IMG/VR virus record: IMGVR_UViG_3300027782_000078 | Location: 1-64,000 of that record | Strand: one strand, 5' to 3' | Length of the DNA stretch: 64,000 nt | Origin: a virus | Shown: positions 56,768 to 60,061 of the stretch, piece after piece | Numbering within the stretch: the first letter of the stretch is position 1 | Layout: the number at the start of each line of letters is the position of its first letter | Made by a program: the position numbers and the translations under genes | Notes under the pieces: model-generated | What the model was told of the DNA's origin: nothing | What the model saw: only the letters and a program-made list of their open reading frames with translations | Databases searched by the model: none

Positions 56768-57187
56768 GTGGAAAAGCATCAGGCGATGGTACGGGAGTTC
56801 ATGCAGGTCTTCGGACAGGAAACACCGGAGTCCTTTTCGCCGGACAGGTTTCCCAAGTCATTGCGGGCAAACCTGATCATTGAGGAAGTGAAAGAGTTGG
56901 TTGCGGCGATTAACGCAGAGGACTGGGTCGAAGTCGTTGACGCACTGTGTGACATTCTGTATGTCACGTATGGTGCGGCAGTCGCACTTGGTGTAGACAT
57001 CGAACCATTCCTTGCGGAAGTGCACCGTTCCAACATGTCGAAGCTTGATCCCGAAACCGGACGGCCAATCTACCGTGAGGACGGCAAGGTCATCAAGCCG
57101 CCCACATGGTCACCACCAGATCTTGTCCGCATTCTTCTTTTGCAAACATCACGGGACTTCCTGAATTCCGCGATGAATGAATTGTAA
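56768..57187 (+). CDS. MazG/HisE-like NTP pyrophosphohydrolase
   Basis: Predicted 139 residues starting at GTG 56768 with GGAGG upstream. EEVKELVAAINAEDWVEVV, then DALCDILYVTYGAAVAL gives the EExxE and ExxD helical pair of the all-alpha NTP pyrophosphatase superfamily, with the C-terminal SKLDPETGRPIYREDGKV segment typical of a phage and bacterial branch. It hydrolyses (d)NTPs or related nucleotides. Could clean the nucleotide pool or blunt (p)ppGpp-linked signalling. Confidence 0.85.
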   Translation: MEKHQAMVREFMQVFGQETPESFSPDRFPKSLRANLIIEEVKELVAAINAEDWVEVVDALCDILYVTYGAAVALGVDIEPFLAEVHRSNMSKLDPETGRPIYREDGKVIKPPTWSPPDLVRILLLQTSRDFLNSAMNEL

Positions 57188-57205
57188 CGGTTTCGTCTCT
57201 ACGTG

Positions 57206-57895
57206 TCAACTCGTCGTCGGGGGTAGCTCGGGTTTGTAGCCCATTGCCATGCAGGTTCGCATGATGAGCATCCGCACTCTCTGGAGACTGCGGATGCCTC
57301 CCTCATGGCATCGTAGCGTGCGTCGACTCATTCCTGTTTTCTTTGCCAGTTTGGTCTGACTGAGATTCAGGTCTGTGCGGGCACGGAGAATGTCGTCGGC
57401 AGATGGCCAGTCCGGATCGTTGACAACGAACTCGGAAACTGGTTCGACGATGTCTCCCTCCCGTGTGGCAGGAAGTGGATCGGAACGAATGGGTGCTGGC
57501 TTTTTCGGGCCAGTAGAAAAAAGATACCGTGTGGTCATTCCGATGTTGCCACCGAAATGACGGTCAGCAATTTCCACCAGTTTCTCATGTTCCTCTGCGT
57601 TGACACGAATCATGATGGTGCAGACGGAATCGCGATCCGGTGGCGCTACCGAATCGTTGACAGGCTTGCGCAGCGCAAGTCGCAACACTTCAACAGCCAG
57701 TTCGTTGACGAGCGTGCTGCGTGCCTGCAGGCGCTTGTAGGTAGTGACGGGAATGAGTGCGGAGATGAGCCGTGATGGCCTTGGCTGCGTAGACAGCAGA
57801 ACCTTTCCGAGCTCAGGCCGGACATGCTGGTAATGATCCGTTGACTCAGTCCACTTTGAGAAATCGATGTTCTCTGAGGAAGACTTCCTTGTCAA
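57206..57895 (-). CDS. Putative XRE-family HTH regulator
   Basis: Frame open to 58048 but its first 67 codons overlap the 84-residue gene in another frame, so a start near TTG 57895 (229 residues) is preferred; uncertain. The C-terminus (RARTDLNLSQTKLAKKTGM, SRRTLRCHEGGIRSLQRV) is a Cro/CI-like HTH, residues about 170-229. The middle (VCTIMIRVNAEEHEKLVEI) resembles a ligand or dimer region. It lies next to many GTTGACA words and is a candidate for the protein that binds them. Confidence 0.62.
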   Translation of the reverse strand: MTRKSSSENIDFSKWTESTDHYQHVRPELGKVLLSTQPRPSRLISALIPVTTYKRLQARSTLVNELAVEVLRLALRKPVNDSVAPPDRDSVCTIMIRVNAEEHEKLVEIADRHFGGNIGMTTRYLFSTGPKKPAPIRSDPLPATREGDIVEPVSEFVVNDPDWPSADDILRARTDLNLSQTKLAKKTGMSRRTLRCHEGGIRSLQRVRMLIMRTCMAMGYKPELPPTTS

Positions 57896-58100
57896 TGGAG
57901 TAGATTTTTTCTCTATGTTGATGGACCAGCTTCGATAGGCTGCGGACCCTGAGGCTGGTTCCGTTTTTGTTGACGCCGACGATTTTGCGGATGTGCCCTT
58001 TGTGGCTTTTGGTTCTGGTTTCCCAGATGCTGCCGATCTCGGGTTCATACGTCGTGATTACCTCGCTCTCCGGTTTGTTGACAAATCTTCGTTGACCCAT
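57846..58100 (-). CDS. Small SH3/KOW-like protein
   Basis: Predicted 84 residues, GGAGCAGG site before ATG 58100. IGSIWETRTKSHKGHIRKIV followed by NGTSLRVRSLSKLVHQHRE has the shape of small actinophage-type SH3-like barrel proteins. Overlaps the HTH gene's frame extension. Two GTTGACA words lie in its upstream region (58127 and 58141). Confidence 0.7.
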   Translation of the reverse strand: MGQRRFVNKPESEVITTYEPEIGSIWETRTKSHKGHIRKIVGVNKNGTSLRVRSLSKLVHQHREKIYSIDKEVFLREHRFLKVD

Positions 58101-58150
58101 TGTCCTGCTCCATCGGAAATGTTTCTGTTGACAATCATTCGTTGACAGTA

Positions 58151-58549
58151 TCAGAAACTGAATGTCTTTGGAACGGTTACCCAGAATCCGTAGTCACCGG
58201 ATCCTTCCTCGCGAATTCCAAAGCGGTAATTGGGAGGACAGTGTTCGTTGATACTCTGGATGACTTTCGGCATTGCCCGAGTCTCGGTCTCGAATTCCCA
58301 CGCGATCATCGCATAGGCCGTCATCTTGTTCTCTGTTGTCATCGCCGTCTCGGCAGTGATCTCCTTTCCTCGCAAGGCAAGGAAGATATAGAAATCAATA
58401 TGATTCACCACCCTTTCGAACAACTCGTCATTGGTGATGTAATCCGCACAGGCAAGCAACTGTTCTGCCGGTCCCATCTTTTTCGTGAACACTGTTCCCT
58501 GCGAGGGAATTGCATCCAGTGCAATCAGTCGTCCTTCATCTGTTGACAT
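58151..58549 (-). CDS. Hypothetical protein (132 residues)
   Basis: Start ATG 58549 (MSTDEGRLIALDAIPS) is preferred; 58552 is adjacent and a longer frame runs into tRNA-Leu. TTGGAGGC gives the ribosome binding site. Helical N-terminal part (NDELFERVVNHIDFYIFLA), beta-rich C-terminus (YRFGIREEGSGDYGFWV). No family recognised. Confidence 0.65.
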   Translation of the reverse strand: MSTDEGRLIALDAIPSQGTVFTKKMGPAEQLLACADYITNDELFERVVNHIDFYIFLALRGKEITAETAMTTENKMTAYAMIAWEFETETRAMPKVIQSINEHCPPNYRFGIREEGSGDYGFWVTVPKTFSF

Positions 58550-58561
58550 CATGCCTCCAAG

Positions 58562-58647
58562 TGCCGGAAGTGGGAGTCGAACCCACACGGCGGATTAGCC
58601 GCCTCCTGATTTTAAGTCAGGTATGTCTGCCATTTCATCATTCCGGC
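58562..58647 (-). tRNA. tRNA-Leu (anticodon TAA)
   Basis: Class II tRNA on the minus strand. Acceptor GCCGGAA pairs with TTCCGGC, anticodon loop CTTAAAA, variable arm GGCGG/CCGCC, T loop GGTTCGACTCC. CCA not encoded. Decodes TTA. Confidence 0.9.
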
Positions 58648-58660
58648 ATGTGCCTGCTAC

Positions 58661-58909
58661 CTACGCCTTGGGCGGACTGTCCGGAGCCGGAGTGGGTCCG
58701 GACTTTCCTTCCCGCTGAGCCTTCGTCTCGTTGCCATAGGATTTTGGTGTAAGGAAGTAAGAAGACACCGCACCCGTCAACCCCACCAGCGCTACTTGCG
58801 CCTGCTCGCTTCCATTCCACACCGCCGCGTAAATCGTTGCCACAATGGTCAGAATGGCAATCGTTGACGCAATCACCTCGACGATTGACGGATCATCATG
58901 CAGCTTCAT
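58661..58909 (-). CDS. Putative holin-like membrane protein
   Basis: Predicted 82 residues from ATG 58909 with GGGAGG upstream. Hydrophobic segments VIASTIAILTIVATIYAAVW and VALVGLTGAVSSYFLT, then a charged Pro-rich tail ending PPKA. The layout of a short two-segment holin; none of the usual lysin neighbours are seen, so this is a weak call. Confidence 0.55.
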   Translation of the reverse strand: MKLHDDPSIVEVIASTIAILTIVATIYAAVWNGSEQAQVALVGLTGAVSSYFLTPKSYGNETKAQREGKSGPTPAPDSPPKA

Positions 58910-58911
58910 TC

Positions 58912-59021
58912 GTTGACACCTCCCAATGAATCAATGATAAAGGGAGTTGACAATTCGACGCGGCTGTTGACACGACTCCGGTTGACCCAAGCCGTACCGT
59001 TGACAGCCCGGATCGTTGACA
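58912..59021. repeat. Cluster of six GTTGACA words, same orientation
   Basis: GTTGACA or GTTGACC begins at 58912, 58946, 58966, 58981, 58999 and 59015, with the last intervals 20, 15, 18 and 16 bases. All read on the + strand. The noncoding stretch between the holin-like gene and the 105-residue gene holds little else apart from a GCCCGGA/TCCGGGC hairpin (about 59006-59030) that spans the last word. Confidence 0.8.
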
Positions 59022-59040
59022 CGTCCGGGCCGTCTTGCGG

Positions 59041-59358
59041 CTACTCCGCCTTGGCCTTCGCCGCCACGGTTGCCTTTGCCTTGGCCACTCGACGGGCAAT
59101 CTCCTCGGCAGGAATGTTGAGCTTCCGGCGCTCCGTGCGTCCGATCCGGAATACCACCTTGGTCGAATCGGAAGGAATCCGGACCAGTCTCTTGCTCAGC
59201 CTGTCCGCTGCACGGTTCAGACTGCGCATCACCTTGCGTGTCGTCTCGCCGCTCTCAATCGTCTGCTCAACCCGCTGCCCGTACACCAGTGGCTCCAGAA
59301 ACTTCATGTATGACGTGAGATCTTCCGAGCTATTGGAGATCTTCGCCTTCTCAAACAT
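59041..59358 (-). CDS. Basic hypothetical protein, probably DNA-binding region gene
   Basis: Predicted 105 residues from ATG 59358 (MFEKAKISNSS); GTG 59364 has a better-spaced AAAGGAAG. Helical with Arg/Lys-rich stretches (RKVMRSLNRAADRLSKRLV, RRKLNIPAEEIARRVAKA) and an Ala/Lys tail. May bind nucleic acids. It is the first gene downstream of the phased GTTGRYA array and its promoter. Confidence 0.65.
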   Translation of the reverse strand: MFEKAKISNSSEDLTSYMKFLEPLVYGQRVEQTIESGETTRKVMRSLNRAADRLSKRLVRIPSDSTKVVFRIGRTERRKLNIPAEEIARRVAKAKATVAAKAKAE

Positions 59359-59626
59359 TGGCACGTTCGTGCTTCCTTTCTTGTTGTGACAGCTGCCCGT
59401 GTTGGCAACCATCCTTCTGCAAGGTAATGGTAGACGATCCCGGCGAACCTGTCAAGCCGTAGGACCATTCATGTTGACTCCGTTCGGATTTGCAATCCGT
59501 TGGCAGTCAGCACTTTTTTCCAATTGTCATTTTCTTTGCCTGCATGCTTTTCCATTGCGCTCTTTTGCGCGTTGACTGCAGCTCCGGAAATGACACGATG
59601 ACCATTTCACCTTGCCCGCATGTTCC

Positions 59627-59749
59627 GTTGATACACCGGATCACCACGTTGAGTTGATACTCTCGGTTGGCACATTCCGTTGATATATCTGGTTGGCACA
59701 TGTAGTTGGCACATCCTAGTTGATATGCACTTTCTTTATGAAGTTGTCA
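59627..59749. repeat. 13-bp-phased GTTGRYA array
   Basis: GTTGATA or GTTGGCA begins at 59627, 59653, 59666, 59679, 59692, 59705 and 59719. Spacing is 13 bases (26 for the first pair, with a degenerate unit in phase at 59640; 14 for the last). GTTGTCA follows at 59743. Within a unit the fifth and sixth bases covary (AT or GC). No coding frame is credible here. Looks like an iteron or multi-operator array. Confidence 0.85.
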
Positions 59750-59852: not shown

Positions 59853-59880
59853 AGTATACCAGCTCCAGCTCAGTTGTCAA
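59853..59880 (-). promoter_or_regulatory. Strong leftward promoter upstream of the array
   Basis: On the minus strand TTGACA (59880-59875), 16 bases, TATACT (59858-59853). The transcript would start near 59846, cross the 13-bp array, and reach the gene at 59358 after a long leader of about 490 bases. A TTTGTGGT/ACCACAAA inverted repeat lies between promoter and array. Confidence 0.7.
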
Positions 59881-59968: not shown

Positions 59969-59984
59969 GATCTTTGTAAAGAAA

Positions 59985-60013
59985 CCCTCCGGGTAAGGGG
60001 GTTACCCGGAGGG
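59985..60013 (-). terminator. Leftward intrinsic terminator of the 60-61 kb operon
   Basis: 12-bp stem CCCTCCGGGTAA/TTACCCGGAGGG with a five-base loop, followed leftward by TTTCTTT. It ends the leftward transcript coming from 61379, about 180 bases past its last stop codon. Confidence 0.85.
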
Positions 60014-60061
60014 CGGCGGGAAAATCGCATCATGCACATCAATCACTACAGGTGCAGAGAT

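Follow-up and report, generated by a model that had tools for sequence, protein, structure and literature searches.

Unidirectional GTTGAC words and a 13-bp GTTGRYA array, possible sites for a DNA-binding protein, in one operon of an uncultured tailed phage

The stoperators of Cluster A mycobacteriophages are 13-bp asymmetric sites, 24 of them in L5 and 34 in Bxb1, which lie mainly between genes and are oriented with transcription (PMC3029335). Most are not associated with promoters, and they block elongation (PMC6550527). Reversal abolishes their activity, and the protein that binds them is a two-domain monomer (PMC9283540). Direct repeats at near-constant spacing also characterize the iterons of plasmid and phage replication origins. 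The operators of omega/ParR-type ribbon-helix-helix regulators are asymmetric 7-bp words in direct repeat, and these heptads abut or sit about 10 bp apart. A literature search on direct repeats of 13 bp, or of GTTGAC, in phage genomes gave nothing relevant.

The window analysed here, a stretch of 64 kb, is part of a 70,475-base IMG/VR virus record. The source is an uncultured tailed phage, with a major head protein that distantly matches SPO1-type phages. The record contains a ribonucleotide reductase gene, tRNAs and a MazG-like gene. The record and the relatives searched yielded no integrase and no ParA, so that nothing points to a lysogeny-type repressor.

The repeats lie in a leftward operon of which all features named here are on the minus strand. 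A terminator-like hairpin (59984–60014) closes the preceding leftward unit. It is followed by a distal promoter-like site, TTGACA-16-TATACT (59853–59880, 11 of 12 positions), and by a proximal one, TTGACA-17-TACCAT (59427–59455), both predicted by consensus match only. The proximal site precedes the gene for a basic protein (59041–59412), which probably has its true start near 59364. Next come an 82-aa small hydrophobic protein, holin-like by eye (58661–58909), tRNA-Leu(TAA) (58561–58647), a hypothetical protein (58151–58553), an 84-aa protein (57846–58100) and, overlapping it, a protein with a C-terminal XRE/HTH_3-like helix–turn–helix (HTH) domain (57206–58048, start uncertain). The HTH protein matches Pfam HTH_3 with an E-value of 2.7e-4, under the gathering score. 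Only its C-terminal HTH is confident in the predicted structure (blocks with pLDDT 73–90), the remainder being poor; N-terminal ribbon-helix-helix units were suspected by eye and are unproven. TAL effectors among its PDB matches were discarded as short and repeat-driven, with no passing stretch.

Three further observations concern the surroundings of these genes. Past its TAG stop, the reading frame of the basic gene continues for about 45 codons without another stop (58906–59043), through a group of GTTGAC words (PQDGPDVSTIRAVNGTAWVNRSRVNSRVELS...), and the homologue of the basic protein in the related record G009 is longer at this C-terminal end; stop readthrough or a decayed C-terminus is possible. 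The MazG-like and HTH genes converge, and the space between them contains a strong match to a leftward promoter, TTGACA-17-TACAAT (57181–57209, 11 of 12), whose −35 element is the sole minus-strand GTTGACA of the stretch. A leftward cassette recurs at about 61438, 63047, 64931, 66936, 67661 and 69551 in record coordinates, the positions within 64001–70475 being taken from L009. It consists, in this order, of GC-rich hairpins (CGACGACGC...GCGTCGTCG), TTGCAAC/TGCAACC repeats about 11 bp apart and a sigma-70-like promoter, with CCGTT-N8-AACGG present in some copies, and looks like a shared promoter–operator–terminator module.

The initial annotation had described a 13-bp-phased array of GTTGRYA units. 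Seven such units (four GTTGATA, three GTTGGCA) are indeed located in noncoding DNA at 59627–59725, all on the plus strand, as found by pattern count; TRF also detects the array. They start, as annotated, at 59627, 59653, 59666, 59679, 59692, 59705 and 59719 (offsets 0, 26, 39, 52, 65, 78 and 92). The 13-bp phase holds for six of the seven; the last unit is one base out, at a spacing of 14. With 7 GTTGRYA per 100 nt, the array exceeds the maximum of 3 seen in 300 whole-record shuffles and 2000 local shuffles. A coding repeat is ruled out, since the 13-bp period is not divisible by three and the units lie in noncoding DNA. The degenerate unit proposed for the gap at 59640 reads ATCACCA, which matches at three of seven bases, the chance level. 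Coupling of the fifth and sixth bases, AT or GC only, is present (p ~0.016 under independence) but is a pattern noticed post hoc; more simply, every unit departs from GTTGACA by a single transition (C to T in four units, A to G in three). The array does lie downstream of the distal promoter-like site and before the basic gene, but the proximal site intervenes, so that the array is flanked by two predicted promoters.

A larger feature had been overlooked, of which the array is only one end. GTTGAC occurs 20 times on the plus strand within 57419–59576, against 0.9 expected. When all hexamers were ranked over 2.5-kb windows of the 70 kb record, it was the most strongly clustered of all, ahead of tandem repeats in structural genes, and 300 shuffles gave at most 7 GTTGAC in any 2.5 kb. 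The clustering is confined to one operon; elsewhere in the record the word is at background. Between 56 and 60 kb, 23 copies are on the plus strand and 3 on the minus strand. As the genes of the stretch run leftward, the transcript of the operon reads GTCAAC.

Together with the seven array units, the operon has 31 GTTGRY sites, 24 of them downstream of the array (20 exact GTTGAC). All are given here on the plus strand. Between the array and the basic gene (59401–59576) there are GTTGGC at 59401 and 59499 and GTTGAC at 59473 and 59571. An intergenic group of six GTTGAC (58912–59020) starts at 58912, 58946, 58966, 58981, 58999 and 59015, with spacings of 34, 20, 15, 18 and 16. Two isolated copies (58542–58868) lie at the start of a 145-aa gene (58542) and in the 82-aa gene (58863), and four copies in two pairs, each spaced 14, surround the start of the 84-aa gene (58077–58146). 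The remaining six, at 57419, 57599, 57656, 57704, 57840 and 57969 (57419–57974), are in the HTH and 84-aa genes and mostly read GTC AAC. Four annotated starts have a GTTGRY site no more than 14 nt away: three belong to the 82-aa gene, the hypothetical gene and the 84-aa gene, and the fourth is the upstream ATG (59412) of the basic gene.

The density of GTTGAC is 21.9 per kb outside genes and 5.1 per kb inside (4.3-fold), with ten copies in each. Even the ten wholly genic copies are in excess of synonymous-codon resampling, which gave a mean of 1.4 and a maximum of 6 over all genes of the stretch; six of them are read in frame as GTC AAC (Val-Asn). None of the 18 one-mismatch neighbours of GTTGAC is strongly raised in the region, the top one being GTTGCC (4 versus 1.1), and the word is thus sharp. 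Its flanks carry little information, and the conserved core is 6–7 bp long. Two simple accounts of the word were discarded. Among the HincII-type sites (GTYRAC), GTTAAC occurs 0 times and GTCGAC once, neither being raised, and a palindromic enzyme gives no strand bias; as for GTTGACA as the −35 element of rightward promoters, a promoter scan shows no plus-strand site within the cluster.

None of the seven array units is an exact GTTGACA or GTTGAC; the hexamers are GTTGAT (four) and GTTGGC (three). If they had been drawn from the downstream pool (20 GTTGAC among 24 GTTGRY), seven departures in seven would have a probability of ~4e-6, by our own arithmetic from the list of GTTGRY sites. The array therefore looks like a separate class, made up of closely spaced near-consensus sites set apart from the scattered exact ones. 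The array sites would be weak and the exact sites strong; any reason for the avoidance of exact GTTGAC in the array is a guess.

Stoperators and iterons had been suggested as precedents from the outset. Like the Cluster A stoperators, with their roughly 20–34 sites, the about 30 short asymmetric sites of the operon share one orientation with respect to transcription and are denser in intergenic DNA; several are at or beside gene starts. Cluster A stoperators are served by an HTH repressor, and the operon here includes an HTH gene. The final bases of the L5 consensus are TGTCAAG, to be compared with TGTCAAC as the sense word of the operon. In contrast to the 13-bp Cluster A consensus, however, the core here is 6–7 bp; the sites are confined to one operon instead of being distributed genome-wide; half of the exact words are inside genes; there is a contiguous array; and no integrase or ParA was found. 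Allowing up to three mismatches, the L5 consensus GGTGGMTGTCAAG gave 27 matches versus 29 expected and the Bxb1 consensus GTTACGWDTCAAG 54 versus 66, which is chance level. No Cluster A repressor was listed up to E 5 in a phmmer search of the HTH protein against PDB sequences. What survives of the stoperator precedent is the way of working; by consensus and distribution, the repeats are not members of the Cluster A stoperators. The array shares with iterons its direct repeats at near-constant spacing, but no initiator or AT-rich stretch was recognized adjoining it, and the words run on through 2.3 kb of genes. The words resemble omega/ParR heptads as short asymmetric direct repeats, although they are spaced by at least 13 bp here, and the model of the HTH protein (57206), at low confidence, gives no more than a hint of a ribbon-helix-helix fold.

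Conservation in related phages was one check set by the initial annotation. Relatives were collected by a head-protein scan of IMG/VR (54–78% identity, the nearest records 76–78%), and homologues of operon genes were found in three of them, G009, G005 and G006. Neither the HTH protein nor the basic protein, used as query in scans of viral contigs, revealed a closer relative; an alignment of the basic protein again had homologues only in G009 (51%) and G005 (40%), and a search with the MazG-like protein gave distant contigs only. G009 keeps, in the same order, the basic gene, the small hydrophobic gene, an apparent tRNA-Leu and the HTH gene. In G006 the MazG-like gene and the HTH gene are retained, the latter still overlapping a homologue of the 84-aa gene, and G005 retains the basic gene. 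The array is absent from all three. This does not refute a function in the present lineage, because the HTH homologues share only about 25% identity.

No sense-strand cluster of GTCAAC was found at the homologous operon of G009. G005 has seven sense-strand GTCAAC in 3.55 kb (p 5e-4, with region bounds chosen post hoc) and G006 three in the HTH region (p 0.01), which are weak hints of an excess. The present lineage apparently acquired the GTTGAC words, since the HTH homologue of G009 has other residues at the positions aligned to those encoded by GTTGAC. No other over-represented word at the relatives' homologous operons was convincing; in G005, the words that cluster most strongly are repeats with spacings of 15–21.

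Similar words occur in other viral contigs. The 13-bp array pattern itself had 14 matches in IMG/VR, all of them unrelated to this phage and most of them minisatellites with near-perfect repeats, and these were set aside. At 13 of 120 triplet-pattern loci, the GTTGACA cluster had a VapE-type (PF05272) primase/helicase gene no more than 1.5 kb away, compared with 0 of 119 loci for the reversed word, in both cases among the matches listed. These 13 clusters on IMG/VR contigs (L071, L074, L096, L100, L105, L107, L111, L117, L129, L152, L162, L165 and L174) are mostly located at the 3′ end of the gene and look like iteron-type origins. In five other contigs (L078, L082, L134, L140 and L161), GTTGACA arrays are located directly upstream of a gene or at its start, and in several of these the gene adjoins a terminase-like gene, a family assigned by eye.

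We tentatively consider, at somewhat less than an even chance, that the array belongs with the dispersed GTTGAC words to a single set of asymmetric direct-repeat sites at which a phage DNA-binding protein would form roadblocks within the operon. The main functional rival, itself rather unlikely, is that the elements act in RNA: repeated (U)GUCAAC, UAUCAAC and UGCCAAC would be targets of a small RNA or of an RNA-binding phage protein, for which the basic protein is a possible candidate, and would govern translation or termination along the operon. The strand bias is equally compatible with action on the transcript, the array would be transcribed from the predicted distal promoter, several start codons have a site no more than 14 nt away, and the first operon gene encodes a basic protein. 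However, there was no Rfam match, folding of the leader is unremarkable (z −1.7), and the tight 13-nt phase is less expected for recognition of single-stranded RNA. Nor do the repeats need to be regulatory at all. Local spread of short repeats by slippage, template switching or gene conversion, together with bits of flank, would account for the longer flanks common to some copies (CCGGATCGTTGACA twice, TCATTCGTTGACA twice) and for the absence of the repeats from relatives; yet the dispersed sites show no enrichment of decayed copies with one mismatch, nearly all sites face the same way and most copies have nothing in common outside the core, and we regard this explanation as unlikely.

A replication origin, with the array as initiator iterons and the dispersed words as additional initiator sites, is quite unlikely at this locus, although the direct repeats are tight and, in other viral contigs, VapE-type primase/helicase genes have clusters of the GTTGACA heptamer at their 3′ ends. 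No replication or initiator gene was recognized near the repeats by PHROGs and Pfam searches of the neighbouring proteins, several of which match nothing. The cluster region is GC-rich (0.52–0.56) with a cumulative GC-skew maximum nearby, and neither measure revealed an AT-rich unwinding stretch or a skew minimum. Moreover, the sites extend through 2.3 kb of genes, with a strict one-way bias that tracks transcription. A centromere-like or terminase-binding array, serving partition or packaging, is very improbable: arrays upstream of a gene adjoining a terminase-like gene are known from some unrelated viral contigs, but here there is no ParA, and no terminase was recognized near the array.

The favoured reading, a set of operator and roadblock sites, has as its target the leftward operon at 59.9–57.2 kb, and the candidate binder is the HTH protein encoded there. 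Lying downstream of the distal promoter and upstream of the proximal one, the array would be a tight row of near-consensus, probably weaker sites that fills cooperatively once the binder passes a threshold; filled, it would stop RNA polymerase arriving from the distal promoter. Further downstream, the exact GTTGAC sites would serve as roadblocks in one direction only, whether they lie at a gene start, in an intergenic gap or inside a gene. With the HTH protein as binder, this would amount to negative autoregulation with stoperator-like logic. Such sites would explain the orientation, the sharpness, the extragenic excess, the gene-start sites and the confinement to an HTH-encoding operon, features from which we infer protein binding, the identity of the binder, the weak and strong classes, cooperativity and roadblock action. 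The short core of 6–7 bp and the absence of the array from relatives that keep operon genes argue against it.

It is possible, though doubtful, that a virulent-type myovirus has evolved in its own lineage a stoperator-like control of elongation in one operon, by combining roadblock words with a concentration-sensing array of transition variants. If so, transcription control by many asymmetric sites would have had an independent origin outside actinophage lysogeny. The copies within genes, mostly at Val-Asn codons, point to selection or some copying process acting on the DNA word through coding sequence. If the sites do block elongating polymerase, stoperator-like control would not be tied to actinophage lysogeny, and the operon, with 31 GTTGRY sites and one candidate protein, would offer a compact test bed for arrays of asymmetric sites.
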